From IMG/VR virus record IMGVR_UViG_3300025325_000038, positions 1 to 49,121 of that record: 49,121 nucleotides of DNA; one strand, written 5' to 3'. Both the position numbers and the translations under genes were made by a program. The notes under the pieces were generated by a model that worked only from the letters and a program-made list of their open reading frames with translations, was not told where the DNA came from and searched no databases. Of this stretch, positions 12,440 through 39,288 are shown piece after piece; positions within the stretch are counted from its first letter, which is position 1, and each line of letters begins with the position of its first letter. This DNA comes from a virus.

Positions 12440-14041
12440 CTACACATCGAGCGTGCGTGCAGTCGCGTAGAGCCAGTCGACAGAGTTGGGCGCCGTGGTC
12501 ATCACGAACTCTCCGGCCTCTTGATCGCCCTCGGTCCAGTCGATGTCGAGGCGCTGGATGAGCCCTGACTTGAAGATCGACAGCGTGCCCGAGATGTACC
12601 CGAAGGGGATCGAGAATGTCGTCGTCGTGTCGTCCGTAGCCGGAGTCGGGGTGCCCTGATAGAAGGCCCCGTACGAGGTCTCGGTATCGGCGTCGGTGAC
12701 GACCTGCAGATTGATCGCGGCGACCTCAGGCTCGCGCTTGCGGAGGTACTTCCAGAGCAGGAACGGGTCCTCGTTTCGGAGGTCGAACATGCCCCTGAAC
12801 TCGACGTGGGCCTTCCCGTTCTTGGCTCCTGAGGGGAAAGAGATCTTGAGCGCCCGGAGGGGCAGGAACTTGTTGAACGGGGTGACGCCCCCATCTTCGC
12901 TGAAGGCCCACAACTGGATCGGTAGGATGTCACCCGGGTAGAGATGCCTCGGCACTCCGGCGATCGAGGGCACGTCCTTCGTGTGCCACATGAAGCTGTA
13001 TGCCCACTGCGGGAAGCGCAGGCCGCGCGGCCCCTCGCCGACGACTGAGCCCGGGCCAGATGGACTGCCCGGGTCGCCAGCAGCATTGCCGAAGACGATG
13101 ACGTTCGCCCGCTGGTCGACGGTCGCCTGCGTCTTGAAGTTGGTCTCGTTGAAGTGCGTTTCTGCTCGCTGCCAGCGGTCGTGGATGTCCTCGAGGTCGG
13201 TATCCGTAGCCCGCTTGAAGACCGTCGTCCCATCGGCCGCGAAGGGCGACCCGCCCCAGACGAAGGCATCGGTCACGAACTCGCTCCCGTCCTCGTCCGC
13301 GTTCAGCTCTCGGAAGCCCCAGTAGGCACCCTCGAAGCCACCAGAACCGACGATCGGGGCATGGTTCGGCTTGTCACTGAAACCCCATGGAGCCTCGACA
13401 TCTTGGATCGCGTGATAGTGGAACGCATCGTCAGGGCCGATGTAATAGATCGCGCCAGAGAGGTACGAGGACAGGCTCTCAGGGAGGAAACGGAGCTTCG
13501 AGCCCTGCTCTGGCCATGCCCAGCCCTTCGTTCCCTGACCGGTGATGACGTCGATCACATCGTCGATCTTCGTCGTCAGATCGAAGCCAGAGGGCATATC
13601 GAAGTACGTCGTGAGCGCTGTCCTGATGATCGCCCCATCCATCGTGCTCGAAGTGATGTTCGGGGGCGCATTGAGGTAGTCGGTCGTCCGCCTGAAGATG
13701 CGTTTGTCGAGCAGGATGTTGTTGTCGACAGCGTAGACGACGAACGATCGGACCTGCGTCTCATCCTTCCCGTCCCCAGCTGGGAAGAAGCTCGAGCGTC
13801 CGACGCGCAGCACGTATCCAGCCCACATTGCCTGCCCGTCGATCTTGAGCTTGAGCCTCGACCCTGTCACGAATGAGAGCTCTCGATCGGGATCTCGGAA
13901 GGTGACCTTTGCCATGGCCGGCATGGCGCCAGAGCTGACCTCGAACTCGGCCATCTTGATCACGGCGTGGCTGGCAAGATCGACTGTCGCCCCGCCCTTG
14001 GGTGTGACGAGAACCTCGACGTCGCTACCCTCGAAGCTCAT
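12440..14041 (-). CDS. tail hub/baseplate protein (paralog of part of the next gene)
   Basis: This 533-residue protein resembles the baseplate hub domain of siphophage tail proteins. The segment FITGSRLKLKI-like (here SFVTGSRLKLKIDG), followed by W/YxGYxLRVGR and then a DNNILLDKRIF motif, closely tracks residues 590-700 of the 1668-residue neighbour (FITGSRVRVDL, YSGYMLTAGR, ADINILFSKRVV). This indicates a duplicated domain. The C-terminal ~60 residues also resemble the C-terminus of that neighbour (SGTLSIFKSGLIQRLDIDWTE). It is likely part of the tail tip complex. It overlaps the neighbouring start by an ATGA. Confidence 0.65.
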   Translation of the reverse strand: MSFEGSDVEVLVTPKGGATVDLASHAVIKMAEFEVSSGAMPAMAKVTFRDPDRELSFVTGSRLKLKIDGQAMWAGYVLRVGRSSFFPAGDGKDETQVRSFVVYAVDNNILLDKRIFRRTTDYLNAPPNITSSTMDGAIIRTALTTYFDMPSGFDLTTKIDDVIDVITGQGTKGWAWPEQGSKLRFLPESLSSYLSGAIYYIGPDDAFHYHAIQDVEAPWGFSDKPNHAPIVGSGGFEGAYWGFRELNADEDGSEFVTDAFVWGGSPFAADGTTVFKRATDTDLEDIHDRWQRAETHFNETNFKTQATVDQRANVIVFGNAAGDPGSPSGPGSVVGEGPRGLRFPQWAYSFMWHTKDVPSIAGVPRHLYPGDILPIQLWAFSEDGGVTPFNKFLPLRALKISFPSGAKNGKAHVEFRGMFDLRNEDPFLLWKYLRKREPEVAAINLQVVTDADTETSYGAFYQGTPTPATDDTTTTFSIPFGYISGTLSIFKSGLIQRLDIDWTEGDQEAGEFVMTTAPNSVDWLYATARTLDV

Positions 14042-17000
14042 GCCTCACCGCCCGGGTCGATCAGGTAGCAGACCCTGATCGGCGTCCCTGCCGGGATCGT
14101 ATCGTCCACGAAGACGATCTGGTCCGGCAGGACCTCTGTGTACTCGGTGCCGAGGCGCTGAAGATTGCCGTCACGCCAAACGGTTGAGCTATTCGCGACC
14201 ATCGCACGCGATGTTCTCACGTAGACGCTGGCGATGATCTCGAGATCTTCGCAAACACGTCCCGAGATGACCGTTTCGCCCGGAATGATAGGCGTACATG
14301 GATCCCCTGTCGGCAGGATGGCCTCGATCAGGTCGAATGAGCGCGTCCCGCTACCAGCCGAACTCGCACCGCCTCGGACGAGGGCCCGCACGATCTCGCT
14401 GGCGGTCAGAGTGCCGAGTGCGAGTTGGGTTGGGTTCCAATCTGGCTCCGTCTCCGAGGCGAGCCAGACCTTCCCACGGATGATCTTCGTATCGAAGTCA
14501 GCCCGCACGGACACCCAGAAAGGGGTATCGTCGAGAGGCAACACGAACGTACCCCCGCCAGCAGCGAGCAGGATCTGCGTGATGCCATCCGGGCGTCCGT
14601 ATCTCAGTGAGGTCGGGTTTGTGGGGCCGTCGGTGTACCAGATCAGCCCACGGCTGAAGGCTGAGTTGTAGATCCCACCCAAGATGTTCGTGACAGTGGT
14701 CGAGACCAACCAGCGGATCTCGACCCAGTCCTTGCCCGTCGCGTAGGCCGACGTGACGAGGATCATGTCCGTGATCTGAGAACCACCCGTGGTCGAAAGT
14801 AGACCCTTGTCGCCATCGACTGACTCGGTAGTCGTCCCGGATACCGCCGTCTTCGACCACGCGTTACCAGATGAAGCCGTGCCCCAACCACTCCCAACAG
14901 TTCGATCGAAGTTGTCGATCACGACGGCCGGGTCGGTCGGTTCGTCACAACCGGGACATGGCTTGTCTTCATAGTCGAAGTCGATGTAGTCGAACTCGGC
15001 GCTGAACCCGGTCAGGTTCGTATTGCCGCTTATCTGGCACTGGATCATCGCCGTGGTCTCTACGTCGTCAGTGACCTCAACGTCCCATAGAGCTGGCTCG
15101 ATGTCCGTCGCTGGCCATGTCTTTGCCCGCATTGCGCCCGCCTCGACGCTGATCTTCAGGAAGAAGGGATCGGAGAAGTCGTGCCCGGAGTCTTGGGCGC
15201 CACTCCCGAAGTTGCCAATCTCAATCTGCCCGAGGTCCTGATACACACTGACCTGCCCAGCGGTGTCCTGACCTGTTCGGACCGTGACGCTTGGAGAGTT
15301 AGAACCGTCGTAGGCAGGCCAGTTCTTGGCGTTGATGAGTAATGTAGCTTCGACCGGCAGGGGGAATGGGAGATCGAAGATGCGCTGCTGGATGGTGCCA
15401 TTCGAGCCCGTGACTGTCAGCTTGCCGATCGTCCCGGTAACCGAGCTTGTGGCTCCCGAGACAGTGCCTGTGCCCCACGCCAGACCCGCGTCGCTCGTGC
15501 CCCAGCCGCTCGTGACCTCGCGGTAGAAGTTGTCGAAGCGGTCCTCTGAGCAGGCGTCGAGACCGGAGATATCGAGGTCATCGAGATAGGACGTGACCGT
15601 CCCAGAGATGGTCTTGTTGAAGCACTGGAACCTGAAACCGCCCTCGATTGGGTCATCACCCGGGCCATAGGCGCTGGAGAGCATCCAGCCCGACGGCTCT
15701 GGGTTGGAAGCTAGCCAGACATTGACACTCAGTTCGCCTGTCGGGTTGTCATAGAAGAGGTGGACCCGGTAATCCTCATTGGGCACCCAATCGAAAGCGA
15801 GCAAGCCAACGTCATCGTGGTCGATGTACCCATTCGGCTCGGAGAAGCCAAAGTTCGAGCCGGGCACGAGCGAGATAGTGCGGCTGGCAGTGAGATTGGC
15901 CCGCAGAAGGTCAAGATGGTAGACGGCATAACCGTCACTGCCACCATGCGTCCAGCCAGCCGCCCGGAACTGGAGCGTGATGTCAATGGAACCACTGGCG
16001 AGAGACTTGGCCAGATATCCGTATGGGGCACCGGACGACCACGCAACGATGCCCTCCAAGCCATTCGTTGACCATGCCCCGCCGCTGGTCACCAGCGTCC
16101 ATGGAATGCCTGCGTCGCTCGTGCCCCAGCCTCCTGAGATCGTCCGTGTGAAGGTGTCGGTGATGCCGCACTCGCACTCCTCCCCCACGACCCTTGGGTC
16201 TGGGATCTCGACCGGTGGGACTGGCGGGATGCTCGGCAACCCCGGATACGGGAGCTTGTCGAAGAGGCTCCAGTCGGCGTCGTAGTCGTGGGAGAGCTTC
16301 AGCTCGTAGCGAACGTCGCACGGGGTCGGGAAGGTCATCCGCATCGACCTGATCGGGAGCACATCATCGAAGTCATGGTACGAGTTGATGAAGCGGACCT
16401 TCTGGCCGACGCGGAGACCATTGGCGTGCGTCACGCATTCGATCTTGACCCTGTCGTCCTTGCGTCCGCGCTTCGAGCTCGGTGAGCCATTCACCACAGC
16501 GTCCGCGATGCGGTTGATCGTCGACTGCTTGTAGACGTCGAAGGCGACGCGAGCGTCCTGCCAGAGATCATGGAGGGCGATCGAGGCCGCACTCTGCTCA
16601 CGACTGAAGACGCCGTGATCGCGCCCCTTGCCGAACCCGAGCGCGAGGAAGTCGTTGACCATCAGATCGGCCGCGTGTTCGATCGTCGACTCCCGATAGC
16701 CACGCACCTCAGCCGGTCCTCCCCCCTCTCCGGGGCCGAGGTTCGAGAGGGCGAACGGGGCATCCTCGATGTCGACATCGGCATAGACCAGTCTTCGATC
16801 GGGATCGAGGTAGAAGATCGCGGCCGGCAACATGGCGATCGTCGCCATCGCCTGCCCCCAGTACATGCCAGCCTGCCATGGGTATGTCGGCTGCCCGTTC
16901 GTGGCTGTGATCTTGGCCACCTGATCGATCATCGAGCTCGTGTCGATGTCGTCGGCTGAGAGATCGAGCCAGTTGTCGACGAGGATCGCGATCGCCTCGT

Positions 17001-19044
17001 CGTCGTATGTTGGGTCGGTGAACGTCGGGCCCTCGACCGAGGCCGGGTTCGACTTCTTGTAGACCACCCGCTTGCTGAACAGGATGTTGATGTCAGCAAC
17101 CTGCAGGACCCATTGCCGTTGGAGGTTGTCGGGATCATCGACCGGGAACCAGAAACGTCGACCTGCGGTCAGCATGTAGCCCGAGTAGATCGGCGGGCCG
17201 ATACCCAGATCGACCCTGACTCGAGAGCCGGTGATGAACTCATCGGTCGTCTGGCCGATGTCACGAATGGTGATGAAGCTCGTGGCTGACGCGCCCTGTG
17301 CGACGGACTCGAGGTAGGTCTGCTTCCAGACCACGATCGAGGTGATGTCCCGGTCGCCGAGGAAGATACGGATGCACTGCGGTTGGCTGGAGGCCACGTC
17401 CGAAGTTGGGCCAAAGGCAGCTCCGATGCCCGAGGCGAGACCCGCGTTGACGCTCCAGTCGGTTGTCGTGAAGACCGTCGGACTGGGTGCTACCCCGGCC
17501 CCAGCTGCGAGCCCGGCACTCGGGGCTACGGATCGACCCGGCTGATACGCTGCCCCGGTCCCTGCCCCGACTCCAGCCCTTGGGGCCACGTTGATGCTCG
17601 CGTCGAGAGCTGACCCGGTCCCAGCGGCCAGCTCGGCTGGGGCGTTCGTCGAGACCCCCGTATCGACCGTGGCGTCGAATGCCGAACCTGTCCCAGACCC
17701 AGCTCCGGCTGGAGTCTCCACGGATGAAGCTGGACCGCCTGCGGCCCCAGATCCGGCCCCCACACCACCACTCGGGGCGAGGAGGATCGATGCCCCGCCG
17801 GCGCTACCGGTCCCAGCTGCTACTTCGGCATTCGCGTTGGTCGCCGAACCACCAGTGTTGACGGTCGCGTCGAATGCCCGCCCCTTCGCGTAGGTATCGA
17901 AATAGACGGGGTCAAAGAACTCCGGGTCATAGACCCCGGCCCCTGCGGTGTCGGCACTGGCGCCGATCGAGACCGATGGCTGGCGTGCGGTCCCCTTGGC
18001 GTACGTATCGAAGAGGTCTGGATCGAAGAGATCTGGATCGAAGAGCCCATCGCCTGCGGTCTCAGCACTGGCAGCGATCGAGACGGATGGGGCACCAGCT
18101 GAGCCAGCACCAGACGCCACCTCGGCGGCGGCATCGTGACCGGCCGAGGTCGTGGCGTCGAATGCGGCTCCGCCTCCAGAACCGACCCCGCCTGAGGTCC
18201 CAACATTCGAGCTTGGACCACCAGCTGAACCCGCCCCAGCCGCTGCGCCAGAGTTCGGCGCGAGCGATACCGATGCAGGTGAGGCTGTTCCAGCCCCGGT
18301 CGCCGCTTCGGCGTTCGCTGAAACGCCTGAAGAGACGCGGAGTCTGGTCATCCATGCGGACTTATAGGTCGTGAGCTCTGAAGTTGAGAGTGTTCCCGTG
18401 ACGGTGGCGGCACCGCTCGACGTGCCACTCAGGGCTAGCGCCGCGCCACCATCGGCTGCGCCGTCGTTGCCTGTCGTTGTCGAGATGGCAGCGGCAGGCG
18501 CCTCGATGATGGTGTCGAAGGTCACCCCCGGCTGGCTGATGCTGGGGACCGTGCAGGTCGTGTTGTCGGTGATGACGTAGAAGAAGTCGACCATGTCGCC
18601 GGCGACGACGCTGACGTGACTCTGGATAGGCGCTGTGATATCGGCGCTGTCCGCGCCCGTAGCCGCACCGCCGTCACCGACCGGGGTCTCCCACGTCTCG
18701 CCGCTATCCTTCATGTAGGACAGAGCGGAGTAGATCGTGGGGATCGAGTTCGAGCCGCCACCGACCGTCAGGGTCGGGTTCGTCTCGGAGGCGGAGGCAG
18801 CTTCCTTGTACCACGCCTGCACGCCGGTATCGCCGCTGCCCGCCCCACCGGCCACGCCGCCGGGACTGTCGAACTTCGCCGCGACCGCCGTCCAACCGTT
18901 GTCGAGCGAGTAGGTGTTGGTGTAGAGCTTTCCGCAGATACGGATGACAAGCATGTCCCCCGCCGCATGCGTCGGCAGGGGAATGGCGAGGGACTCTAGG
19001 GAGGTGTCAGCCCAGCCACTGTCGGCCCGAATATCGATGGGCAC
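14038..19044 (-). CDS. giant tail hub protein with Ala/Gly repeats and three jelly-roll modules
   Basis: The protein has 1668 residues. Residues 1-240 form a beta-rich N-terminal domain resembling that of the protein at 34823-36709 (a GDTWxT-type segment and similar order). Residues 241-553 are about 13 Ala/Gly/Ser repeats of ~20 residues, with an inserted FDPDLFDPDLFDT stretch and a second variant. Residues 556-930 match the hub domain of the 533-residue neighbour. Residues ~960-1160, ~1168-1360 and ~1378-1575 are three copies of a module beginning D/N-x-F-x-R...GWGTSxAGxxW, a LamG/concanavalin-like jelly-roll pattern probably binding glycans. The C-terminal ~90 residues resemble the neighbour's C-terminus. 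It likely forms the tail tip. Confidence 0.72.
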   Translation of the reverse strand: MPIDIRADSGWADTSLESLAIPLPTHAAGDMLVIRICGKLYTNTYSLDNGWTAVAAKFDSPGGVAGGAGSGDTGVQAWYKEAASASETNPTLTVGGGSNSIPTIYSALSYMKDSGETWETPVGDGGAATGADSADITAPIQSHVSVVAGDMVDFFYVITDNTTCTVPSISQPGVTFDTIIEAPAAAISTTTGNDGAADGGAALALSGTSSGAATVTGTLSTSELTTYKSAWMTRLRVSSGVSANAEAATGAGTASPASVSLAPNSGAAAGAGSAGGPSSNVGTSGGVGSGGGAAFDATTSAGHDAAAEVASGAGSAGAPSVSIAASAETAGDGLFDPDLFDPDLFDTYAKGTARQPSVSIGASADTAGAGVYDPEFFDPVYFDTYAKGRAFDATVNTGGSATNANAEVAAGTGSAGGASILLAPSGGVGAGSGAAGGPASSVETPAGAGSGTGSAFDATVDTGVSTNAPAELAAGTGSALDASINVAPRAGVGAGTGAAYQPGRSVAPSAGLAAGAGVAPSPTVFTTTDWSVNAGLASGIGAAFGPTSDVASSQPQCIRIFLGDRDITSIVVWKQTYLESVAQGASATSFITIRDIGQTTDEFITGSRVRVDLGIGPPIYSGYMLTAGRRFWFPVDDPDNLQRQWVLQVADINILFSKRVVYKKSNPASVEGPTFTDPTYDDEAIAILVDNWLDLSADDIDTSSMIDQVAKITATNGQPTYPWQAGMYWGQAMATIAMLPAAIFYLDPDRRLVYADVDIEDAPFALSNLGPGEGGGPAEVRGYRESTIEHAADLMVNDFLALGFGKGRDHGVFSREQSAASIALHDLWQDARVAFDVYKQSTINRIADAVVNGSPSSKRGRKDDRVKIECVTHANGLRVGQKVRFINSYHDFDDVLPIRSMRMTFPTPCDVRYELKLSHDYDADWSLFDKLPYPGLPSIPPVPPVEIPDPRVVGEECECGITDTFTRTISGGWGTSDAGIPWTLVTSGGAWSTNGLEGIVAWSSGAPYGYLAKSLASGSIDITLQFRAAGWTHGGSDGYAVYHLDLLRANLTASRTISLVPGSNFGFSEPNGYIDHDDVGLLAFDWVPNEDYRVHLFYDNPTGELSVNVWLASNPEPSGWMLSSAYGPGDDPIEGGFRFQCFNKTISGTVTSYLDDLDISGLDACSEDRFDNFYREVTSGWGTSDAGLAWGTGTVSGATSSVTGTIGKLTVTGSNGTIQQRIFDLPFPLPVEATLLINAKNWPAYDGSNSPSVTVRTGQDTAGQVSVYQDLGQIEIGNFGSGAQDSGHDFSDPFFLKISVEAGAMRAKTWPATDIEPALWDVEVTDDVETTAMIQCQISGNTNLTGFSAEFDYIDFDYEDKPCPGCDEPTDPAVVIDNFDRTVGSGWGTASSGNAWSKTAVSGTTTESVDGDKGLLSTTGGSQITDMILVTSAYATGKDWVEIRWLVSTTVTNILGGIYNSAFSRGLIWYTDGPTNPTSLRYGRPDGITQILLAAGGGTFVLPLDDTPFWVSVRADFDTKIIRGKVWLASETEPDWNPTQLALGTLTASEIVRALVRGGASSAGSGTRSFDLIEAILPTGDPCTPIIPGETVISGRVCEDLEIIASVYVRTSRAMVANSSTVWRDGNLQRLGTEYTEVLPDQIVFVDDTIPAGTPIRVCYLIDPGGEA
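17386..18324 (-). repeat. tandem ~60-bp (20-residue) Ala/Gly/Ser repeat region, copy set 1
   Basis: About 13 in-frame units inside the 1668-residue tail protein. Typical units are ASxxxAPNxxxAxGxGxAxx, with variants beginning PS or AT and a longer 24-residue form. This set contains two insertions of FDP-type sequence (residues 330-392). DNA copies are too diverged to be recent duplications. Confidence 0.7.
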
Positions 19045-19092: not shown

Positions 19093-22000
19093 TCAACTTG
19101 CCAGCGAGAGCATGCCGGCCTTCCGGCCGATCTCCTCGATGACCTCGTCCTTGAGCCGGCGTACGAGCTTGGTGATGTCGCTGTCATCTCGGATCGAGTT
19201 ACCGGTGATCGTGATCGGCACGTTGATCGTCACGCTTCCACCGCCCACGGGCGCCATGGACCCGATGCGAGGGTTCTTGACGATCGCGATGCCCTCCTTG
19301 TTGGCCTCACCGAAGAGCGCCTGAGTCGGGCTGAGCGCCACACCGACGATGCCCTCGGCGTGTCCGCCGGTGGCCGTTGAGCTTCGTTCGTTCCCGCGAT
19401 TGATGGTGATGCCGAGCGCCTTCTCGATGTACCTCGTCGCCATCGCCACAGTGCCCGCGTACATGGCCGTGAAGCTCGCGGCCAGCTGGAGCTTGTTGTT
19501 GAAGTTGTTGGTGGCCTGACCGAAGAGCGACTGCGCGTCCTGCTGGAGCCGGGCTTGCTTCATGCCGAGGGCCACGATGTGCTTCTGGGCTGCGAGCTGT
19601 TCCTGCTCGAGCGCATGTGAGGCCTGCAGGATCTCTCGCTGGGCTTCCAGATCGGCGACCTGCCGGGTGGTCTGAATGCCGAAGGCCTGCCCCTCGAGAC
19701 CGAACTGCTTCTGGGCGATCGCGAGCAACGCTGTCGCGATGTCCTGCTGCTGCTGGGCGAACTTGGCCTCGGCCTTGGCCTCCTCCATCCGGGCAGCTCT
19801 CTCCTCGCCGCTGATGCCAACTGCTTGGAACCCGGCGAGCGCCGTCTGGAAGTTGATCTGGCGCTGGTTCATCGCCAGCGATAGACCTTGACTCTGGAGA
19901 CCAAGGGCGCCGGACTCCCGCCCGAGCTCGTACTGCCGCCGCTCGATGATGCCGAGCCTGCTCCCGCCGCCCATGCCGGCGAGCCCTCGTGCGTCTCGGA
20001 TGCTCCGGCTCAGGATCCGAAGCGACAGCCCGTACTGCATCGCGTTGACTTGAGCCTGCCGGTCGGCGAGGGCGGCATTGATATTGGCGATCTGCTGGCC
20101 GTACGCCTCGACCTGACGCATGTTCGCCCGGAACTGGTTGCCAGCGGTCATGCCACTGGGCTGGATCTCGGTGACATTCCGGTCGATGAACTTGGCCTGC
20201 TCCTCGACAGCGGCATGCGCTTCTGCTGTCAACTCCTTCTGGAGCCTGTTGATCTCGCCGAGGTCAGTGATAGTCGACTGGAAGCCCTTACCGGCATTGG
20301 CCAGCCCGGTCTCGGCAGGCGCGAATGGATTGGTGAGGATCTGTTGCCCGATGGCGCCCGGAATAGCGATGCCTCGCTCGAACTGGCCTTGCTCTTGTGC
20401 GAGCTGCTGCTGGGCGATGAGCTGCTGTCGGTTGGCCTTGAGGAAAACGTCCTTGGCCGGGATCGTGAGCCCCTGAGCCAGCTGGCTGGTCGCCTCGATG
20501 ATCTTCTTCGAGTCGGTGATCAGATTGCCGCGCGCATCGAGGAAGACCTCACCGGCTCCCGCGAGGTCCCGAATAGTCTGATCGAGCGCCTCATCGGCGG
20601 CGATCCGCTTGGCTCGTGCATCTTCCTCCCCGACGTTGACGAGCTGGGGCCCGGGTGTAATCAGACCTTGCGCTGTCCGCCCCCGGGCGATCGCCTCATT
20701 GACGTAGTCGATGGTCTCCCTCTGAACATCGGCCTGCTCTTGTGTTTGGGCAGGCTCTGGCCCAAGCAGTGAGCCAATCCCCTTGCCGCTCTTGTTCTGT
20801 TCGCGGAGCCACTGGGCGACCATGTCGCCGATGGGATCACTCGACCCAACAAGCGTCGGTGTCGTCGTCGCTTTGGCTGTTCCGGCGATGGTTTCGAGAA
20901 GGCCCCTACCACCGCCGAGCTGCTCGCCGAAGAGGGCGGAACCGAAGAGGCCGCCATACCCACCCAGCAGTCCCTGCGGGGCCCCTGTCCCGAGGGCGGC
21001 GCGGAAGAGCTCGTCGGCCGAAGCCGCCTTCTGGGCGCCAGCCTTGGCAAAGATGCCGCCACCAAGCTGTTGCTGCAGGAAACTGGCATTGCCACCGGAG
21101 AGACCAGCCTGAATGCCCACCTGACCGAAGAGCGTGCCGAGGGTTCCGGCCTGCGGGAGCTGCTCGGCAAGCCCCTTGCTGACGCGCGCGTTGACCGCCG
21201 TGAAGCCAGAGAGCCGATCGATGATCGGGGAGATCGACTTGACCGACAGATCGATCGCCGCCGAGACCGCCTGAGAGGCTGCGCTGTAGACGAAGCCTGC
21301 GGCCGTTAGGCTGGCGATGTTCGTCAGCGCTCCACTGGTCGCCTCACTGAAGGCCTTCGTGGCTTCCGCCTTGAGGCCCTCCTGCTTGACGATATCGCTA
21401 GCGGTGATATCGATCGCTCTGCTGACATCGGCGAGATCCTTCGAGAGGCTCTTGAACCGCTGCTGGCCCTTCTTCGTCGTCGTATCGAGACCAGAGATCT
21501 CGTTCTTGAGTGTCTCGCTGGTCTTCGTCAGAGCGCCGAAGGACGCGATCAGTCCGACGAGCGGACGCTCCTGCTCGAGGGCTTGGAACTGCTTCTCGTA
21601 GAACTCGCCTCGCTGCAGGGCCTCACGGCGTCGCTCGCCGCCGAAGAAGCCCCTGAAGAGTCCGCCGAGTCCCTGACGGGCGCTCAGTCCACGTTCAGTC
21701 GTCTGGAGACGCAGTCTGGCCTCTGCGAGGGCATTGTTCTGCTCTTCAAAGGTTGATAGATCGCCCAGCCCCCCACCGACAGCCGAGACCTGCGCTTGGG
21801 CGCCCCGGCTGAGGGCCGAGAGGCGCCTCGTCTCAGCGCTGGCTCGAGCTCGTCTGGCCCGTTCCCTCTCTGCTCTTCGTACCGCCTCCTCGGCCTCGAA
21901 GCCGGCCTCGAAGCCACCGTACATGCCCTCATATCCGCCCGGGGCCGCTCCACCTTGGGCCCTCGGGATCTTGTTCATGAGGTTGTTCGGGATGATCCAA

Positions 22001-24651
22001 CCATCGCTCGGGGCCTGCCAGACCATCGGCCCTCGACCGCCGATCTCCTGCATCCTGCCCGGGCCCGGTCGTGCGCTGCCGATCGCTCGGCCGCCCGGGA
22101 TCTTCTCCGCGACGTTCCGTGGGATCAGGTGCTCGAGCTCTGAAGGAACGAAGAGTTCCCGACCGAGCTCGGCGGTGATATACGTCCCGGCAGGGCCACC
22201 CTTCGCTCGTGCCCTGACGGTAGATGAACGCTCCTTGGCGCTCAGCTTGTCGAGGAAGGCGCCGAAGCCTTGCTTCCGGAACCGTTCAGCACCCGTGACT
22301 CCGCCCTCAACGCCGCTGAACAGCTCGGCGAACGCTTCACTCTTGAAGCCCTTGTTGGCATACGGAGAGAGCGAGCGAAGGTCGTAGAGATCAGTCTGGT
22401 AGCGCGGGCCAGTTCCATGCGTATAGTCGACCGCATGTCCGAACTCATGTCTGAAGACTCCGGCCAGTGAGGGATCGACGAGCGTCCGCTCGAGCATCTT
22501 CCTGATATCGGGGCCCCATCGAGCGGCGCGGTTCTGGAAGAGCATCCTCGAGCCGTATGAAGCCGGCGAACCCCTGACAACATCGAACGGACTCGAGCGA
22601 AGGCGAGCGATCGTTGTCTGCCCTTCTCGATCGACGCGCTCCGTCATCGGATCGAATGCGACAGCGCGCATGTTCTTCGCCGTCAGCGGATAGCGCTCAA
22701 CGAGTGGGCCAGCTGTATCAGCGATCTCCCTGAGGGCTTTCTCGCTGAACCGATCGAGCCGGATCTTGGCGTTGGGGAACATGCTCTGAATGGCATCGAT
22801 GGCACCGCCACGAGCAAAGCCGGGCAGCTTCATCTGGTTCGGTGCTGGGTCTCCTCGTCGGCGGATGGTCTCGATCTCTTCGCCAGCGCCGAGGTTATAG
22901 AAGGCCTGCTGCGCCTCCCGCCGAGAGAGGACCATGGCGGCCCTCTTGCGAGCTTCGACCTCGACCGGATTGAGATGGATGTTGCCCTCGCTCAGCCACG
23001 TGCCAGTGAACGGGGCACCCATCTTCTGGATGCGCCTGAAGCCCCTGATGAAGGAGAGGCGGTCCCCTGCCCCGATGATCTCTTCGCCTGCATTGAGGCC
23101 GACGGCATAGCCCCTCGAGGGCTGCTGCCCGCCGGGACCGAAGGTGCCGCCCCCCTGCTCGATCGTGCGTCGGTAAGCCTCAGCTCGCCCACCACGCCAG
23201 CGGGTCAGTCCCTGCCAGATCGGCCTCGGGCCGCCCTCTTCCTCGTCGAGCTGGGCGTAGTAGGCCTCGAGCTCGTCGTCTCCCGGGCGCATCATCCATG
23301 GCCGTCGACCTCGACCCCTGCGACCGAAGGTCGGCATGATCGCCTGCTGGTGGGTCCTAGTCCCGTAGTGCCTCGAGAACGATCCACGATACGGGTGGCC
23401 GAAGGCATCGACCTTGCCGCCGAGGCCAAACGGCAGCGGCATCTGTCCCGGAGCCTGACCAGCCTGCTCCTTCTCGAGGAGCCAGAGCGCAGCCTGATAC
23501 GGAGCATTCTGGGTTCCGTGTTCAGCTGCGGCCGTTCGCCACGAGCTCTCCATAGCGGATCGAAGAGACCTCGGCGGACTATCCAGTGCTCCCCTCGTGG
23601 TCGACCTCGTCGCCCATCGATCGAGGACGATGGCGTCGAGATCCCCAGACAGTCCGGCGTAGAACTGGCCCACCTTCGGTGACGATCTGAAGGCCGAGCT
23701 CGGGGGTTGCCCGCCGAGGATCGCTGCCGCCTTCCGATGGGCATCAAGGTTCGTCGAGTACGGGAACGGCTGGCCACCTGCATGGGCCGCGAGGACTCTC
23801 TCGAACTTCGTCCGGTTCGAGGTCCATGAGGTTCCAGCCGAGAGCGCAGCGAGGACGCCGAGTGCTTTCTCATCGGCCACCTTGTACTTGGCGGCTTGCG
23901 CTCGGCCGTATGCGCCAGCCTCGCGATACCAACGTTCTCCGCCCTCGATGTGACGAGGCTGAAGACGAGCGGCGGTTGCCCTGAGGTTGCCAGCGAAGTC
24001 GAGCTGCTCTGGCGTCAGGCGAGCGGCCACGCTCCTGCCACGAGCGGCATGCGGCAGCTGCTCGATCCGCCCCGCGACGGTCGGGCGAAAGATCTCATTG
24101 GGATGCACGATGTATGAGCCGGGAGGCGAGACGGAGCCCCCGGCGGCTCGTGATGGCAATCCAGCTCGCCCGGCCTGTGCAGCCACCGTCGGGCTGGCCA
24201 GCTGTCTGGCCGCCCGAACGATCGAGGCCGGATCGATCGTGACCTTGATCGGGACCTCGCCGATACCACGAGCGATCTCGCTACGAAGCTGGGCGTACGG
24301 GATCCGTGCGAGCTTGATCGGAACCCCGACGGCCTCACCTCGCGCCGACAGCGCACGCATCTGGGCGTTGATGTCGACACGCAGATCCCTGACCGCGCCA
24401 GCGGAGACTTGGAAACGAGGCGAGACACGCGGCTGAGCGCCGATGCCGGGCATCGCGACCGCCACACCCGGCGGCTGAACGCCACCCCCGCCACCGCCCC
24501 TCCCGGGAGCGACAGCGACACCGATGGTGATGTTCCGGGCGGCGTCCTGCAGGCTTTTCAGCTCTGACTTGGCTCGCGCGATGCCAGAGCTGAAGCCAGC
24601 CGTTTCCAGACGGAGGTCGAGTGCGATCCCGCTGACGTTCTCTTCGGCCAT
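19093..24651 (-). CDS. tail tape measure protein with embedded metallopeptidase-like domain
   Basis: At 1852 residues this is the longest gene. Its start VSGIALDLRLETAGFSSGIARAKSELK and its Ala/Gln-rich coiled-coil second half, with hydrophobic patches (for example near 1190), fit tape measure proteins that set tail length and span it. The C-terminal TINVPITITGNS and KDEVIEEIGRKAG segments are also typical. Unusually, residues ~210-390 read like a DUF7178-type helical domain (GQFYAGLSGDLDAIVLDRWA). Residues ~620-800 carry HEFGH (735-739) and SEAFAELF ~33 residues later, a gluzincin-like zinc peptidase pattern. TAELGRELFVPSELEHLIP is a common tape-measure segment. By the usual ~1.5 A per residue rule the tail would be under 280 nm. 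Confidence 0.8.
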   Translation of the reverse strand: MAEENVSGIALDLRLETAGFSSGIARAKSELKSLQDAARNITIGVAVAPGRGGGGGGVQPPGVAVAMPGIGAQPRVSPRFQVSAGAVRDLRVDINAQMRALSARGEAVGVPIKLARIPYAQLRSEIARGIGEVPIKVTIDPASIVRAARQLASPTVAAQAGRAGLPSRAAGGSVSPPGSYIVHPNEIFRPTVAGRIEQLPHAARGRSVAARLTPEQLDFAGNLRATAARLQPRHIEGGERWYREAGAYGRAQAAKYKVADEKALGVLAALSAGTSWTSNRTKFERVLAAHAGGQPFPYSTNLDAHRKAAAILGGQPPSSAFRSSPKVGQFYAGLSGDLDAIVLDRWATRSTTRGALDSPPRSLRSAMESSWRTAAAEHGTQNAPYQAALWLLEKEQAGQAPGQMPLPFGLGGKVDAFGHPYRGSFSRHYGTRTHQQAIMPTFGRRGRGRRPWMMRPGDDELEAYYAQLDEEEGGPRPIWQGLTRWRGGRAEAYRRTIEQGGGTFGPGGQQPSRGYAVGLNAGEEIIGAGDRLSFIRGFRRIQKMGAPFTGTWLSEGNIHLNPVEVEARKRAAMVLSRREAQQAFYNLGAGEEIETIRRRGDPAPNQMKLPGFARGGAIDAIQSMFPNAKIRLDRFSEKALREIADTAGPLVERYPLTAKNMRAVAFDPMTERVDREGQTTIARLRSSPFDVVRGSPASYGSRMLFQNRAARWGPDIRKMLERTLVDPSLAGVFRHEFGHAVDYTHGTGPRYQTDLYDLRSLSPYANKGFKSEAFAELFSGVEGGVTGAERFRKQGFGAFLDKLSAKERSSTVRARAKGGPAGTYITAELGRELFVPSELEHLIPRNVAEKIPGGRAIGSARPGPGRMQEIGGRGPMVWQAPSDGWIIPNNLMNKIPRAQGGAAPGGYEGMYGGFEAGFEAEEAVRRAERERARRARASAETRRLSALSRGAQAQVSAVGGGLGDLSTFEEQNNALAEARLRLQTTERGLSARQGLGGLFRGFFGGERRREALQRGEFYEKQFQALEQERPLVGLIASFGALTKTSETLKNEISGLDTTTKKGQQRFKSLSKDLADVSRAIDITASDIVKQEGLKAEATKAFSEATSGALTNIASLTAAGFVYSAASQAVSAAIDLSVKSISPIIDRLSGFTAVNARVSKGLAEQLPQAGTLGTLFGQVGIQAGLSGGNASFLQQQLGGGIFAKAGAQKAASADELFRAALGTGAPQGLLGGYGGLFGSALFGEQLGGGRGLLETIAGTAKATTTPTLVGSSDPIGDMVAQWLREQNKSGKGIGSLLGPEPAQTQEQADVQRETIDYVNEAIARGRTAQGLITPGPQLVNVGEEDARAKRIAADEALDQTIRDLAGAGEVFLDARGNLITDSKKIIEATSQLAQGLTIPAKDVFLKANRQQLIAQQQLAQEQGQFERGIAIPGAIGQQILTNPFAPAETGLANAGKGFQSTITDLGEINRLQKELTAEAHAAVEEQAKFIDRNVTEIQPSGMTAGNQFRANMRQVEAYGQQIANINAALADRQAQVNAMQYGLSLRILSRSIRDARGLAGMGGGSRLGIIERRQYELGRESGALGLQSQGLSLAMNQRQINFQTALAGFQAVGISGEERAARMEEAKAEAKFAQQQQDIATALLAIAQKQFGLEGQAFGIQTTRQVADLEAQREILQASHALEQEQLAAQKHIVALGMKQARLQQDAQSLFGQATNNFNNKLQLAASFTAMYAGTVAMATRYIEKALGITINRGNERSSTATGGHAEGIVGVALSPTQALFGEANKEGIAIVKNPRIGSMAPVGGGSVTINVPITITGNSIRDDSDITKLVRRLKDEVIEEIGRKAGMLSLAS

Positions 24652-27199: not shown

Positions 27200-27618
27200 T
27201 CCGATCTCCTGACCATGGCCTTCAGCCATTCGGGCCACGTGTCGTCCTCGTTGACGTCGATCACGAGGTAAGCAAGCTCAGGACTTGCTACCGGCTGCAG
27301 AAAGTCCTTCGGCCTCACGTCAGTGCCCACTGGCAGTCGGACGACATGGATGCTCTGAGTCGAGATGTCGATGTCAGCGTCGAACTCCGTCTGCAGCGGT
27401 CGTGAGACGAACCAGCCGTAGACGGTCTCGACCTCATCGGCCTGTTCGACGACATCGGGATCCACCACGGCATCGTCACCGTAGTCATACGCGGCATCGT
27501 ACTCCGCGCTCGAGACTGTGATTACGCTCGATCGAAGGATCTTGATCGGTGTCGTCATCATCGACACGCCGACATCCCTGATCTTATCGAGCTCCTCGGC
27601 GGAGAGGATCGGATCCAT
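27196..27618 (-). CDS. head-tail connector/stopper-like protein (DUF6093-like)
   Basis: The start at ATG 27618 (MDPILSAEELDKIRDVGV) gives 140 residues and overlaps the preceding stop by one base (TGATG). It shows repeated beta-strand pairs (GWFVSRPLQTEFDADIDI, SIHVVRLPVGTDV) and a closing acidic/aromatic section. Its size, strand pattern and place between the connector and gp10-like genes fit the head completion or stopper proteins of siphophages. The DUF6093 resemblance is from general pattern and position only. Confidence 0.5.
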   Translation of the reverse strand: MDPILSAEELDKIRDVGVSMMTTPIKILRSSVITVSSAEYDAAYDYGDDAVVDPDVVEQADEVETVYGWFVSRPLQTEFDADIDISTQSIHVVRLPVGTDVRPKDFLQPVASPELAYLVIDVNEDDTWPEWLKAMVRRSE

Positions 27619-32401: not shown

Positions 32402-33619
32402 CTAGGCCTCCGCTGGTATGCCCTCCTCCCGCTCCTGCGGCTTCGTGAGGGCTTCGATGTAGAAGTGGAAGCGGGCAGCCGCCTGATCCCACGAGAAGTT
32501 CTCTCTGACGTGTGCCAGCCCAGCCTCGGCGAGCTCCTTGCGCCGTTCCGGGTTCCTCGCCAGCAGCACCAGCTGCCCGGCCATGTCGTTCGCGTTGGTC
32601 AGGATCAGGTCGACCCCGTACGGGTTGGTCAGGAAGCTGATGCCCTCAACAAGGACACCGCCGGGGCCGACGACCTCGGTGATCGCAGAGCCAGATGTCG
32701 CGAGGATCGGTACCCCGCAGGCCATGGCCTCGGCGATGGTCAGCCCGAAGCCCTCTCCACGACTCGTGGTCAGGAAGAGGTCGAAGCAGTTCATGAGCGC
32801 CACGACATCTGGGATCGGCCAGTTATCGTCGTTGGTGACCATGTACTTCCCGCCACCACGAGAGATCAGCGCCTCGATATTCACCCCATGCTGGGGGGCG
32901 TTGATCTTGGTGTGGAAGACGGCGACCGTCTTACCTTCGACGAGACCCATCCGATAGGCGGTATCGATGACCCGCCACGTCGAGCCGTAGTCCTTCCGCC
33001 CGCTGTTCGTGTCGACACGCCCGATGACGAAGGCATCCTGCGGGATGTTGAAGGCCTCCCGGCAGCCAGCCTTGGAGTAGAGCGGACCGGCCACGATCGA
33101 CTCGATCGGGTGGTCATCGTCAACCGGATGGAAGACGTTCGTGTCGACGCCGTGGTAGACGAAGTGTTCGACTCCCATCATCTCGGCGCCGAACTGCGAC
33201 ATGGCGACGACGTTCGCGTACCGCTTGACGTCCAGCCACTCGGGCGGGATGCCGTATCCGTCGATCGGCAGGTAGGAGAGGACCGGCTGCTTCTGGGCCA
33301 ACTTCCCCTCGGTGTCGAAGCGATTGCCGAGGAGCCGCTTCCGAAGCTGTGGCGCGTCTTCGAGGGTGACCACTAGATCGGGCTCGAGGCGGTCGATCAG
33401 CTCGACGACCCTGTCGTATCCGAGCGGATGGCGAGCCTCGCCTGCGTTTGCCCGGTAGAGCTGAAGCGGTCCTGTGTATGGGTCAGCAGCTCCCCACAGG
33501 ACCGCCAGCGCATGGATCTCGTGCCCATATTGAGTGACGAGTCGTCCGCCGATCTCCTCGGCCACGCGCCCGAAGCCGGTCGGCGTTCCAGCGTCACCGA
33601 TCCAAAGTATCCGCGCCAT
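32402..33619 (-). CDS. GT4-family glycosyltransferase
   Basis: The 405-residue protein has the GT-B layout of family 4 glycosyltransferases: ARILWIGDAGTPTGFGRVAEEIGGRL at the N-terminus. IGRVDTNSGRKDYGS follows, and then SRGEGFGLTIAEAMACGVPILAT, the E-x7-E-type donor binding motif. The chain ends with a helical ENFSWDQAAARFHFYIEALT stretch. It lies in the structural operon between the protease and the fibre-like block. It may glycosylate virion proteins, as described for some phages that carry such genes near capsid genes, or a host glycan. The RmlB-like gene in the early operon could supply a sugar. Confidence 0.78.
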   Translation of the reverse strand: MARILWIGDAGTPTGFGRVAEEIGGRLVTQYGHEIHALAVLWGAADPYTGPLQLYRANAGEARHPLGYDRVVELIDRLEPDLVVTLEDAPQLRKRLLGNRFDTEGKLAQKQPVLSYLPIDGYGIPPEWLDVKRYANVVAMSQFGAEMMGVEHFVYHGVDTNVFHPVDDDHPIESIVAGPLYSKAGCREAFNIPQDAFVIGRVDTNSGRKDYGSTWRVIDTAYRMGLVEGKTVAVFHTKINAPQHGVNIEALISRGGGKYMVTNDDNWPIPDVVALMNCFDLFLTTSRGEGFGLTIAEAMACGVPILATSGSAITEVVGPGGVLVEGISFLTNPYGVDLILTNANDMAGQLVLLARNPERRKELAEAGLAHVRENFSWDQAAARFHFYIEALTKPQEREEGIPAEA

Positions 33620-34823: not shown

Positions 34824-36709
34824 CAGGTGACCTCCGCCTCGATCTCCGGACGTACCTCGACTTCGCCCTCTGGTGCTGCCCGGACCGTCACATCGCCCTC
34901 CATCCCCCTGACTCCGACCGTGACCCCGCGATCATCTCGTACGGTGACGGCCGCGCTGATGGTCTCACGAACGGTGATGGTCGCGCGAGGTCGATGTGGG
35001 AAGAGCGCCGGGGGAATGGTCGAGATCCCGAACGCGGACCCAGCCCCAGAGGCAAGCCCAGCTCGTGGAGCAATCGAGAGTGAGGCCGGCGTTATGACCC
35101 CGGCCCCGATGGCGATCACGGCCAATGCCCCAACGCTCGAGCTCGGGCCACCGGCGGCCCCGGTCCCTGCGGCGGCACCGCTGTTCGTGATCAGGTCGGC
35201 AGAAAGTTGACCGGCCGATCCTGCCCCCGATGCTGTACTGCCACTCGACCCGACAGATGGCGATGCGCCACCGGCAGCGCCGGAACCAGATGCCAACCCG
35301 GCATTGACGCTGACGTTCTCGCTCGTTGAGATGGTCGCATCAAGAGCAGCGCCAGACCCTGTGGCGGCCCCAATCGTCGGCGAAACGGTGGACGTCGCCC
35401 CACCAGCGGATCCCGAGCCTGTCGCCGGATCGCCATTCGGCGCGAGCGACGCTGATGCATCAGGGGCCGTTCCTGCCCCGCTCGCCAGTGCTGGACTCGA
35501 CGCGATGGCGCTGGCGACCCCGAATGCTTCCCCAGAACCTGCAGCGGTGTCCCCATTCGGCGCGATCGAGGCTGAGGCATCGCTTGCGCCCCCCGATCCG
35601 GAGGCGAGACCAGCCTGAGCCTCAGTCGATGCCGCGACCGGGTTGCTGAAGGTCGCAGACCATGGGCCCCATGACGGAGCTCCGCCGCCAGTGTCAACGG
35701 ACGGATCGAGAGCAACACCGGAACCTGAGGCGAGGCCTGCATTGACGGCGACCGACGGCCCGGGGTCGCTGGCCACGCCGCTGCCGGTTGCATCTCCACC
35801 ACTCGTTTCGATGGCGGCGGTGATGGCGAGCGCAGAGCCTGTTCCGGCAGCATTGCTGGCCTCAGGCTGGACGTTGACCGAAGCGACAGACGCGGTGCCA
35901 GATCCAGCAGCGTGCTCAGCCGTTGGCGCGAGGCTGATGGCCGCTGTGTATGCTGCCCCGGTGCCCGCCGCCAGCTCGGCGTTGGCGTCCGTCGCGGGAG
36001 GGGCGGCATGGATAACGAGGAAGAGGGCATTGCCCGACTCGGCTGCCGAGAGGTCGCCATCCGCGTGGAGGGTGACCCCGGCTGCGCCCGTGGTCACGAA
36101 CCGGTGACCGAGGTCGCCTGAGGCGTCGAGGCCGGTCGTGCTGTTGTAGTGCGTCGCCGGACTCTCGACATAGTCGCCGTTCCACGTGATGAGGCCGCCC
36201 GTGTCGTCGATGGCATCGGTTGCCCGGCCCATCGTCGCGGAGTCGTCGCGGAACGAGACCATGCAGGCGACTGCGGCCCCATCAGGGATGTCTAGCGTGG
36301 ACTCGGCATCGACCGTGAATGGGTCGGCGGCGGCGATGGCGCCGACCGCGAAGACGGGCGTGGGCCACGTGTCGCCGGCTTCCTTCTGCCAGAGCATGAT
36401 GACGGCGTGCGCCTCGGTCGGCGCCGCCGACCAGTCAAGGCTCGGATCGCCATCACCCGACTGCCAGTCCCGGTACCATGCCGCCACCGACACCGAACCG
36501 CCGCCGTTGGTTGCGGCCGCCGTTCCGTCGGCGTCACTGTTGACGATGGGCGTCCAGCCCGACGGGTCCGAGACCGTGATGCTGAACGTCTTCCAGTTGG
36601 CGAACAGGAACATCCGGTCGCCAGCCGCGGGCGAACCGGGGATGGTGACGCTGGATGGGTCAGAGACGACCCGCGCCCATGCTCCTGCTGTCTTGAGTGA
36701 GGCGGTCAT
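34823..36709 (-). CDS. tail/fibre protein with Ala/Gly repeat region
   Basis: The start at ATG 36709 is a TGATG overlap, giving 628 residues. Residues 1-~238 form a beta-rich N-terminal domain (including SITVSDPSGWTPIV and GDTWPTPVF) that resembles the N-terminus of the 1668-residue tail protein. Residues ~240-561 are about 15 repeats of ~20 residues (such as ASASIAPNGDTAAGSGEAFG). The C-terminal ~67 residues are strand-rich with Val-Thr-Val-Arg repeats (AAVTVRDDRGVTVGVRG). This is likely an elongated surface fibre or decoration protein. Its N-terminal domain and repeats have relatives in two other genes. Confidence 0.65.
   Translation of the reverse strand: MTASLKTAGAWARVVSDPSSVTIPGSPAAGDRMFLFANWKTFSITVSDPSGWTPIVNSDADGTAAATNGGGSVSVAAWYRDWQSGDGDPSLDWSAAPTEAHAVIMLWQKEAGDTWPTPVFAVGAIAAADPFTVDAESTLDIPDGAAVACMVSFRDDSATMGRATDAIDDTGGLITWNGDYVESPATHYNSTTGLDASGDLGHRFVTTGAAGVTLHADGDLSAAESGNALFLVIHAAPPATDANAELAAGTGAAYTAAISLAPTAEHAAGSGTASVASVNVQPEASNAAGTGSALAITAAIETSGGDATGSGVASDPGPSVAVNAGLASGSGVALDPSVDTGGGAPSWGPWSATFSNPVAASTEAQAGLASGSGGASDASASIAPNGDTAAGSGEAFGVASAIASSPALASGAGTAPDASASLAPNGDPATGSGSAGGATSTVSPTIGAATGSGAALDATISTSENVSVNAGLASGSGAAGGASPSVGSSGSTASGAGSAGQLSADLITNSGAAAGTGAAGGPSSSVGALAVIAIGAGVITPASLSIAPRAGLASGAGSAFGISTIPPALFPHRPRATITVRETISAAVTVRDDRGVTVGVRGMEGDVTVRAAPEGEVEVRPEIEAEVT
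35027..35992 (-). repeat. tandem ~60-bp (20-residue) Ala/Gly/Ser repeat region, copy set 2
   Basis: About 15 in-frame units of the same repeat as in the 1668- and 859-residue proteins, with unit types such as ASxSIAPNGDxAxGSGxAxG. One segment is longer, with an added PSWGPWSATFSNP insertion, and another has the 24-residue type seen elsewhere. Confidence 0.7.
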
Positions 36710-39288
36710 CAGGTGCCTGCTCTGACGCGGCGGTACCACGTCGTTGCGGTGAGCGGTGTCTGGACGGTGTACCGAGCCTCATTGCCCGCGTATGCCTGCG
36801 GGACACCCGTCGGCGCGACGGCCTCCCATCCGGTCCCGTTCCAGAAGTCCCAGCCAGTCTGTGCGAGATCGCTCCTGATCTGTCGGAGATCGCCCGTGTC
36901 GAAGGACGGGGCCGTGTCGAGCTCGAGCTCGAAGAACAGCGCCGATCCCATGTCGGGCATCAGGAACTTCAGCTCAGGGCTGTCTTGGATCTGAACGGTA
37001 TCCGCAGGTGTCGTCCAGACGGGTGCATTCGTCGTGATATCGAAGGCAACGCCGGTGCCAGAGGCCACCTCAGCGTTGGCATTGACGGTCGGGCTCGTCG
37101 AGACGGTGGCATCGAAGGCGGCGCCCGAACCAGCCGCTGCCCCGATCGAAGCTTCGACGCTCGAGCTCGGACCACCAGCAGCACCCGAACCTGATGCTGC
37201 ATCTCCGTTTGGAGCGAGGTTGATCGAAGCATCAGCCGAGACACCCGACCCGGACGCCACCTCAGCGTTCGCCTCGACGTTGCTGCTCGTCGAGACGGTG
37301 GCATCAAGGGCGGCGCCTGCGCCAGAGGCAACCTCGATCGTTGGTGCGACGGAAGCCGAGAGCCCACCGGCCGATCCGGAGCCTGAGGCTGCGTCACCAT
37401 TCGGGGCGACATTCGATGAAGCCTGTTCCGCAGAGCCAGCGCCAGTCGCTGAACCGATGCTCGAGAGAACGGCCGATGAAGGCCCGCCTGCTGATCCAGT
37501 CCCCGATGCGGTCTCGACGTTGGTCGCGATCGTGATCGTGGCGGCGAAGGCCGATCCGGCCGCTTGAGCCGACTCCGCGTTCGGGGCGATGTTCGCCGAG
37601 GCCTGACCCGCCTCCGCTGATCCAGTCGCGGCGCCGATGGTCGGTGAGACGGTAGAGCTTGGACCGCCTGCCGAACCAGATCCAGAGGCGGGGTCACCAT
37701 TGGGGGCGAGATTGATGCTCGCCGCGCCAGCAGCTCCGGTGCCCGTCGCCGTCTCGGCGTTCGCATCCGTGTCACCTGCTGCTGTCTCGGCGGTGGCATC
37801 GAAGGCCGCACCCGTGCCGGCAGCGGTCCCTGAGTTGACGGCGATCGAGGCGCTCGAACCACCTGCCGCACCGGTTCCTGAGGAGACGTCGGCATTCGGG
37901 GCGACGCTTCCAGAGGCGTCCTGAGCAGATCCAGATCCAGTCGAGGTGCCGCTCGTCGGTGAGATGGCCGAGCTGGCATTCCCTGCGGACCCAGAACCAG
38001 CTGCATTGCCGCCTGTTGGGGCGACCGTCGACGTTGACCCGCCAGCAGCGCCCGTGGCGATCCCAACGTTTGCGTTTGGCTGCAGATTGATCGAGGCGTT
38101 CGGGGCTGCCCCAGACCCAGAAGCAACCTGAGAGGCAAGGCTGATCGTGCCGCCGGGATCGTAGGCGGCCCCCGCCCCAGCGGCGTTACCCCCACTGGCG
38201 CCGACGTTCGCGCTCGGATCACCCGCCGCTCCCGTGCCACTCGCGAGTCCAGCATTGACCGCCACCGACGCACTGGGGCCATGAGCGGCGCCCGTACCTG
38301 TGCCAGAACCTGCGGTCGGAGCGACCGTGGAGCTTGGACCACCTGCTGCACCAGTGCCTGTACCAACGTTCGCGCTCGGCTGGAGATTGATCGAAGCCTG
38401 ATTGGCAGCGCCAGAGCCTGTCGCAGCGCCGATGGTTGCCGAGACAGTCGACGTCGGACCACCCGAGGCTCCCGTCCCTGCGCTTGCCCCGGCATTCGGC
38501 TGCAGATTGATGGATGCGTTGCTGGCGGCCCCTGTCCCAGTCGACTGGTCACCGCTGGTGGCGATCGAAGTCGAGGGGTTATAGGCGGCCCCCGCTCCAG
38601 ATGCGACCTGTGCATTCGCATTCGTTCCGGCCGCTGGCGTGAAGATCCCGACGAAGCTGGCCGACCAGCGCCTGACATACCTTCGTGGAGCATGGATCTG
38701 TTTCGTGGTGAGGAACTGATCGATAGCGCCGATCCGACGACGCGCGACGATGGCTCCGGCCGGCGGAGGCGTGTAGGTAATCGTGACCCGGATGTAATCG
38801 ACTTGGATGTCGGTGTTGGCGGCGTCTGCCTGTACCGAGAGGAAGACCGCGAAACCGGCCGCATTGATCTGGGCGACGGTCAGACCGGCGTTCCAATCAT
38901 CGGCCGCACCCCCGTAGGTCGCCACGGCCGTAGCCGTCGGCCAGTCGAGGGCGGTGTCCGCCTTGTTGTCGCCGACCAGAGCGGCGAAAGTCGTCCCGGT
39001 CGCCAGTTGGACCCGGTTATCGCTCGCCGCCCCGGCGCTGTTCCGGCGATCGATCTCGACCGTGATCCCAAGGATGGTCGCGCCAGCCGGGATCGTGAAG
39101 CCGAAGCCCGACGCAACGAGGATCTCGCTGATGTCGGGCGAGTCGTACGTCGGGGCGGTGATCGTCGCTTCGGAGCCATCGTCGCCGCCGACGTTGGTCG
39201 GATTGACCCATCCCTCGGCGCTCTCGGACGTGCCGGCGTTCGAGAGAGAGGATGCGCTACTTGGGTATCGCGGTCCCTCTGAGGCCAT
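36709..39288 (-). CDS. tail/fibre protein with largest Ala/Gly repeat region
   Basis: The protein has 859 residues. Residues 1-~220 form a beta-sandwich N-terminal domain (GFTIPAGATILGITVEIDRR and VDYIRVTITYTPP). Residues 222-750 are about 26 repeats of ~20 residues (for example ASINLQPNAGASAGTGASGG, and 24-residue forms). A C-terminal ~109-residue beta domain (WTTPADTVQIQDSPELKF to WYRRVRAGT) resembles a fibronectin-like or carbohydrate-binding domain. Its stop is coupled by TGATG to the next repeat gene. It is probably a long virion fibre. The repeat arrangement in DNA is imperfect, so units have diverged. Confidence 0.65.
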   Translation of the reverse strand: MASEGPRYPSSASSLSNAGTSESAEGWVNPTNVGGDDGSEATITAPTYDSPDISEILVASGFGFTIPAGATILGITVEIDRRNSAGAASDNRVQLATGTTFAALVGDNKADTALDWPTATAVATYGGAADDWNAGLTVAQINAAGFAVFLSVQADAANTDIQVDYIRVTITYTPPPAGAIVARRRIGAIDQFLTTKQIHAPRRYVRRWSASFVGIFTPAAGTNANAQVASGAGAAYNPSTSIATSGDQSTGTGAASNASINLQPNAGASAGTGASGGPTSTVSATIGAATGSGAANQASINLQPSANVGTGTGAAGGPSSTVAPTAGSGTGTGAAHGPSASVAVNAGLASGTGAAGDPSANVGASGGNAAGAGAAYDPGGTISLASQVASGSGAAPNASINLQPNANVGIATGAAGGSTSTVAPTGGNAAGSGSAGNASSAISPTSGTSTGSGSAQDASGSVAPNADVSSGTGAAGGSSASIAVNSGTAAGTGAAFDATAETAAGDTDANAETATGTGAAGAASINLAPNGDPASGSGSAGGPSSTVSPTIGAATGSAEAGQASANIAPNAESAQAAGSAFAATITIATNVETASGTGSAGGPSSAVLSSIGSATGAGSAEQASSNVAPNGDAASGSGSAGGLSASVAPTIEVASGAGAALDATVSTSSNVEANAEVASGSGVSADASINLAPNGDAASGSGAAGGPSSSVEASIGAAAGSGAAFDATVSTSPTVNANAEVASGTGVAFDITTNAPVWTTPADTVQIQDSPELKFLMPDMGSALFFELELDTAPSFDTGDLRQIRSDLAQTGWDFWNGTGWEAVAPTGVPQAYAGNEARYTVQTPLTATTWYRRVRAGT
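37039..38625 (-). repeat. tandem ~60-bp (20-residue) Ala/Gly/Ser repeat region, copy set 3
   Basis: About 26 in-frame units, the largest of the three sets. The unit consensus is close to (A/P)S-x-(I/V/N)-x-P-N-x-x-x-A-x-G-(S/T)-G-x-A-x-x. Pairs such as ASINLQPN... and PSSTVxPTxG... alternate, as if larger 40-residue units had been copied. Confidence 0.7.

Follow-up and report, generated by a model that had tools for sequence, protein, structure and literature searches.

Arrays of a 20-residue Ala/Gly-rich repeat in predicted virion proteins of environmental phages are probably an extensible spacer or fibre shaft

The window analysed here is the whole of a 49,121-base IMG/VR record (IMGVR_UViG_3300025325_000038) with a GC content of 63.8%. 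Its structural module lies on the minus strand and runs in the order large terminase, portal, P0003, P0002, a phrog_1084 protein, glycosyltransferase, a protease-like gene, major capsid, major tail, tape measure, P0001 and a second hub-like gene, headed by a candidate terminase small subunit (47298-47927, by position only). The tape measure was assigned by length and position; the gene in that place (19093-24651) encodes a DUF7178 domain (residues 231-393, E 8e-24, phrog_3842) that is unexpected in a tape measure. A tail-spike-like protein with a Pro/Ser/Thr-rich N-terminus (27618-28661; phrog_2234, 3e-11) is encoded among the head-tail connector genes, the glycosyltransferase gene (32402-33619; phrog_2170) adjoins the structural genes, and 5745-6728 encodes a nucleotide-sugar epimerase-like protein (phrog_540). 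A second record, IMGVR_UViG_3300025327_000102, is 99.95% identical and joins the end of the window (49121) to its start (1) through ~23.2 kb, so that the phage map is ~72 kb and the window a fragment of it; the ~23.2 kb gap outside the window holds no further repeat arrays.

Three long open reading frames of this module, P0001 (14038-19044), P0002 (34823-36709) and P0003 (36709-39288), all on the minus strand as are the features within them, carry arrays of a 20-residue repeat. Scanned with a gapless 20-residue matrix that was trained on P0003, the three proteins yield 51 clear units (11 in P0001, 14 in P0002 and 26 in P0003) against a mean of 0.25 and a maximum of 3 in 200 residue shuffles. 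The original prediction of one family in three genes is thus borne out, and its counts of 13, 15 and 26 units are reached once degenerate units are included. Autocorrelation peaks at 20, 40 and 60 residues in the proteins, with P0001 additionally high at 64 and 37, and at 60, 120 and 180 in the DNA. The P0003 array (residues 218-750; 37039-38637) has 26 units of 20 residues with three spacings of 24-25, while that of P0002 (residues 246-571 in GTG-start numbering; 35027-36004) has 14 clear units and degenerate ones besides. For P0002 itself the ATG start at 36709, as originally proposed, is preferred over the longer GTG start at 36739, since it overlaps the P0003 stop and a homologue in the relative L009 starts likewise. 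In P0001 the clear units span residues 237-545 in two parts, of four units (residues 237-318; 18091-18336) and seven units (residues 398-545; 17410-17853). The 24-residue variants noticed at the outset do occur in all three proteins, in the form [FY]DATVSTSxxTNAxAEVASGTGxA.

The interruption of the P0001 array (residues 319-397; 17854-18090) contains two related 37-residue blocks of the type DPxxFDPxxFDTYAKG, GLFDPDLFDPDLFDTYAKG and GVYDPEFFDPVYFDTYAKG; other aromatic blocks (PGxxWRKHFQHPQQ) occupy comparable places in the arrays of the relatives L013 and L015. Synonymous codon use in the arrays (17410-18336, 35027-36004 and 37039-38637) is more even than in the other genes, with GC3 of 0.57 against 0.72 for Gly (p 7e-8) and of 0.61 against 0.74 for Ala (p 4e-4). 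Scrambling of codons to avoid DNA repeats is unsupported as an explanation, shared 12-mers being no fewer than in synonymous shuffles, and GC balancing is an alternative cause.

The domains that flank the arrays are varied. P0003 begins with a probable beta-sandwich, judged from its sequence (residues 1-217; 38638-39288), of which residues 54-172 are 45% identical to a stretch of MW202478 annotated as tail tubular protein A, and ends in a domain (residues 751-859; 36712-37038) shared with L009 (72% identity) and L060 (56% over 126 aa). The N-terminal domain of P0002 (residues 12-245; 36005-36706) is predicted by AlphaFold2 to be a beta-sandwich (pTM 0.65), and this model has no significant match in the PDB; its C-terminal tail (34826-34987) is, in translation, rich in TVR/VEVR. 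Arg/Glu-rich tails, short and periodic (TVRxxxx, RPWREP, SGREP), stand at array-adjacent protein ends here and in L044, L023 and L068. P0001 starts with a domain (residues 1-236; 18337-19044) homologous to the P0002 N-domain (E 3.7e-13), with further homologues in L060 and L074. The original prediction that the proteins carry differing domains around the repeats is therefore not true of all three, failing for this pair of N-domains. Beyond its array P0001 has a tail-hub-like domain (16162-17361), paralogous to the next gene (12440-14041; 28% identity, E 5e-23) and called hub from its position after the tape measure, followed by a C-terminal region (14041-16161) which may contain LamG-like repeats and has no sequence match in the PDB.

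The same array joins exchangeable domains. In L060 a P0001/P0002-type N-domain leads through the array to a P0003-type C-domain, and in L009 a different N-terminal region is followed by about 17 units and again a P0003-type C-domain; a relationship of the L009 N-domain to window gene 39750-40958 was rejected (E 0.036). The array in L034 leads to a phrog_5313 protein, Apiosidase domains stand beside arrays in L013 and L044, Laminin_G_3 (LamG) in L076 and BppU_N-like domains, below the Pfam cut-off, in L022 and L045. The array ORF of L022 also bears a phrog_553 minor tail protein domain and a phrog_1084 domain, the latter fused to the repeats, while in the window the phrog_1084 protein is a separate gene directly after P0002 (34452-34823), its start overlapping the P0002 stop. 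The proposal of a modular spacer agrees with this placement of one array between differing domains, although its roles as a shaft and in tuning length would go beyond it.

Gene context, that is a structural module with recognised structural domains, marks the array proteins as predicted virion proteins. P0001 comes after the tape measure and carries the hub-like domain; P0002 and P0003 sit between the portal and major capsid genes, and could therefore be head rather than tail proteins. Searches around portal genes place arrays both upstream and downstream of them.

BLAST-type searches of isolated phages with the arrays drew a blank, as low-complexity filtering masks them, and IMG/VR was therefore scanned with a DNA pattern encoding N-A-x-x-A-x-G-x-G-x-A followed 20 residues on by A-x-G-x-G-x-A, which yielded 61 stretches. 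An HMM of the window units gave about 38 further non-redundant IMG/VR ORFs with arrays of 4 to ~40 units each, for a total of 569 units in 41 ORFs, window genes included. Shuffled arrays score about 0.1 units each by HMM, but the 20-mer HMM also scores reversed arrays (330 against 565 forward and 5 for shuffles) because AxGxGxA is nearly palindromic, and unit counts alone were therefore not taken as proof of homology. The arrays have no match in Pfam, NCBIfam or a PDB sequence search, and those of the window proteins none in PHROGs, in agreement with the earlier remark that the pattern is unlike collagen or common fibre repeats. One PHROG cluster, the unnamed and functionally unannotated phrog_23524, matches the array of L033 (2e-12), and to judge by this match the repeat already sits inside it. 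A stricter pattern, present in ~20 viral loci, gave a single match among genomes from 84,980 prokaryote species, and that was not a repeat; at this sensitivity the family looks virus-restricted. Matches in Microbacterium Alleb (a collagen-like protein) and Rhodococcus ReT1v-2 proved not to be relatives. A literature search found no description of the repeat. The family is real and apparently undescribed.

Across the 569 units a clear positional pattern is seen. Positions 12, 14, 16 and 18, whose consensus is A, G, G and A, hold A, G or S in 96-99%; T, S or A predominate at the intervening positions 13, 15 and 17; positions 7-10 read [AP]-N-A-G and positions 19-20 [YFN]-[DN]. Large hydrophobic or aromatic residues (V/I/L/M/F/Y/W) make up 72% at position 5, where V/I/L dominate, and 53% at position 11, where V/I/L are common; elsewhere Ala and Gly mostly prevail. 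Window units agree with one another at third codon positions at a rate of 0.26-0.30, no more than codon usage would give, and this saturation of synonymous sites indicates that the window units are old; the retention of positions 12, 14, 16 and 18 in spite of it indicates that the protein pattern is under selection. The same figure, together with a tandem-repeat finder (TRF) search of the window that returned no 60-nt array, gives no support to the suggested recombination among the three genes as a recent process: exchange of whole arrays between them, if any, could be ancient and invisible in the DNA.

Expansion and contraction of unit number are real within the family. The close relatives L026 and L059 share 99% identity along 6.6 kb, with array ORFs 97% identical, and L059 is shorter by exactly 186 nt, equivalent to three units (62 residues), so that repeat counts vary between relatives, here by whole units, in line with the expansion and contraction originally proposed. 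Recent duplications are also evident in exact DNA repeats of up to 94 nt in L056 and in further repeats in L033, L018 and L026, but not in the window genes. Between neighbouring units, 457 spacings fall between 17 and 26 residues, of which 318 are 20, 58 are 24, 29 are 22 and 16 are 18. Spacings other than 20 are even in 104 cases and odd in 35 (p 4e-9; 31 proteins against 6), a test weakened in that many proteins have inherited a single 24-residue variant. The additional two or four residues fall between the two predicted strands, at the hairpin tip, and are housed in the conserved long variant [FY]DATVSTSxxTNAxAEVASGTG. Length changes of an even number fit a hairpin because they keep the in/out alternation of both strands.

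An AlphaFold2 model of seven units as a single chain, from 21 aligned sequences, is of moderate confidence (mean pLDDT 72, pTM 0.59), with hairpins mostly at pLDDT 67-79 and strands predicted at positions 2-8 and 11-18 of most units, in agreement with the positional pattern. One predicted face is nearly all Ala/Gly and the other Ser/Thr. One beta-hairpin per unit is thus the most likely fold on the model. The structure prediction proposed as a check accordingly yields more than disorder for seven units, whereas the three units included with the P0002 N-domain in a second model, built from five sequences, reach pLDDT values of 32-41 beside a beta-sandwich with pTM 0.65. These low values in a shallow alignment, an array composition suited to a flexible linker (A, G, T and S make up 67%) and the want of a fold match to solved structures are what might be expected if the arrays were intrinsically disordered Ala/Gly/Ser/Thr linkers tethering domains, with the pattern a by-product of the duplication of low-complexity units. 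We regard such linkers as unlikely, given the selection on positions 12, 14, 16 and 18, the mostly even-numbered length variants and the higher pLDDT of the seven-unit hairpins in the deeper alignment. Foldseek comparison of the seven-unit model with the PDB gave no match at E<=0.001 and none with a TM-score above 0.5, and a search of viral models gave only non-significant matches, among them A0A1B1INP9 with a TM-score of 0.78 and, ranked 16th, a minor tail protein of GodonK with E 0.75.

Known fibrous and repetitive folds offer several points of comparison. In the adenovirus fibre and reovirus sigma1 shafts, length is set by the number of repeats and an end domain binds. The triple beta-spiral, the fold of these shafts, pairs antiparallel strands through a tight Pro/Gly turn and uses 17 residues per 15 A (PMC7565637). 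The array likewise has short repeats with the order strand, turn, strand in its AlphaFold2 hairpins, a conserved P/N-A-G turn and domains at its ends, and might be a divergent member of that fold. This is improbable: compared as single chains, the array has an Ala/Gly-rich face with a conserved Gly-x-Gly and a hydrophobic core that looks far weaker, V/I/L predominating at position 5 alone; its period is longer, most often 20 and next 24 and 22 in place of ~15-17 residues; and it has no sequence or fold match to fibre shafts. The array is not filed under the triple beta-spiral. The Orsay virus delta protein similarly forms a repetitive beta shaft with its own short motif, but its beta-bracelet is pentameric, with about 8 residues per 15 A and a different sequence (PMC7565637). 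BACON domains also occur as tandem arrays in tail-associated proteins of crAss-like phages, with possible host binding and spread by duplication or horizontal transfer (PMC6949934), yet each is a whole carbohydrate-binding domain, whereas the present unit is 20 residues long and non-globular and its arrays have no Pfam match, whereas a globular BACON or Ig-like unit would be recognised by a Pfam model. Minor tail proteins of Gordonia phages (Phendrix gp92, GodonK 95/96, Pickett 27 and Moosehead 28) resemble the array proteins in having ~24-residue VATGTGxAPAGTV repeats beside beta-sandwich-like domains, but homology with them is unsupported, an HMM of the 24-residue units scoring them no higher than reversed and shuffled controls (Phendrix 6.4 bits against 7.8 reversed). 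Glycine lies at positions 14 and 16 of 20, with an autocorrelation peak at 20, and not at every third residue as in collagen-like GXY; and the predicted strands alternate as hairpin-like pairs, their direction read from the element pattern, and not as in a parallel beta-helix or solenoid, with no PDB match above a TM-score of 0.5.

The PDB matches to the seven-unit model are weak; the best are to an ice-binding protein and curli, and antifreeze proteins also appear. Together with the regular S/T ladder at positions 13, 15 and 17, they would suit an array that is itself a ligand-binding surface, a flat Thr-rich face like ice-binding or silk-like sheets, with the end domains just anchors. Those matches are non-significant (E >= 0.26, low TM-scores), and the lectin-like and glycosidase end domains are better candidates for binding, leaving a binding role for the array itself very unlikely.

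We consider it probable instead that stacked beta-hairpin repeats form a stiff rod, which gives virion proteins an extensible spacer or fibre shaft. Each unit would comprise a strand at about positions 2-8, a tight turn at about 8-10 rich in P/N-A-G, a strand at 11-18 and a second turn at 19-21, the hairpins stacking head to tail into the rod. The near-invariant Ala-Gly-Gly-Ala face probably packs against its counterpart, either on partner chains or on a sheet that folds back, leaving the Ser/Thr face exposed to solvent. Adhesive, enzymatic or anchoring domains would be held at the rod ends, away from the virus, where contact with the host may be made, and shaft length would be set by the number of units and altered in whole in-frame units. 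With strands running across the axis and ~9.5 A per unit, as derived from standard beta spacing, shafts of about 25 nm for P0003, 13 nm for P0002 and 10 nm for P0001 would result. A larger proposal, that the repeat represents a novel fibrous beta fold in which the Ala-Gly-Gly-Ala interface underlies an oligomeric shaft, tuned in length by the gain and loss of whole hairpins, and that many environmental phages use this shaft universally to connect domains for receptor binding and glycan degradation, we regard as conceivable rather than probable.

This compact repeat flags candidate fibre proteins in contigs of uncultured phages where sequence similarity otherwise fails, and its exchangeable end domains are candidate host-recognition parts. 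The family also presents the evolution of an apparently virus-restricted repeat in which length change is visible unit by unit. If the predicted fold is true, it would constitute a type of shaft built on Ala/Gly and not on a hydrophobic core, which would interest structural biology and work on protein materials.
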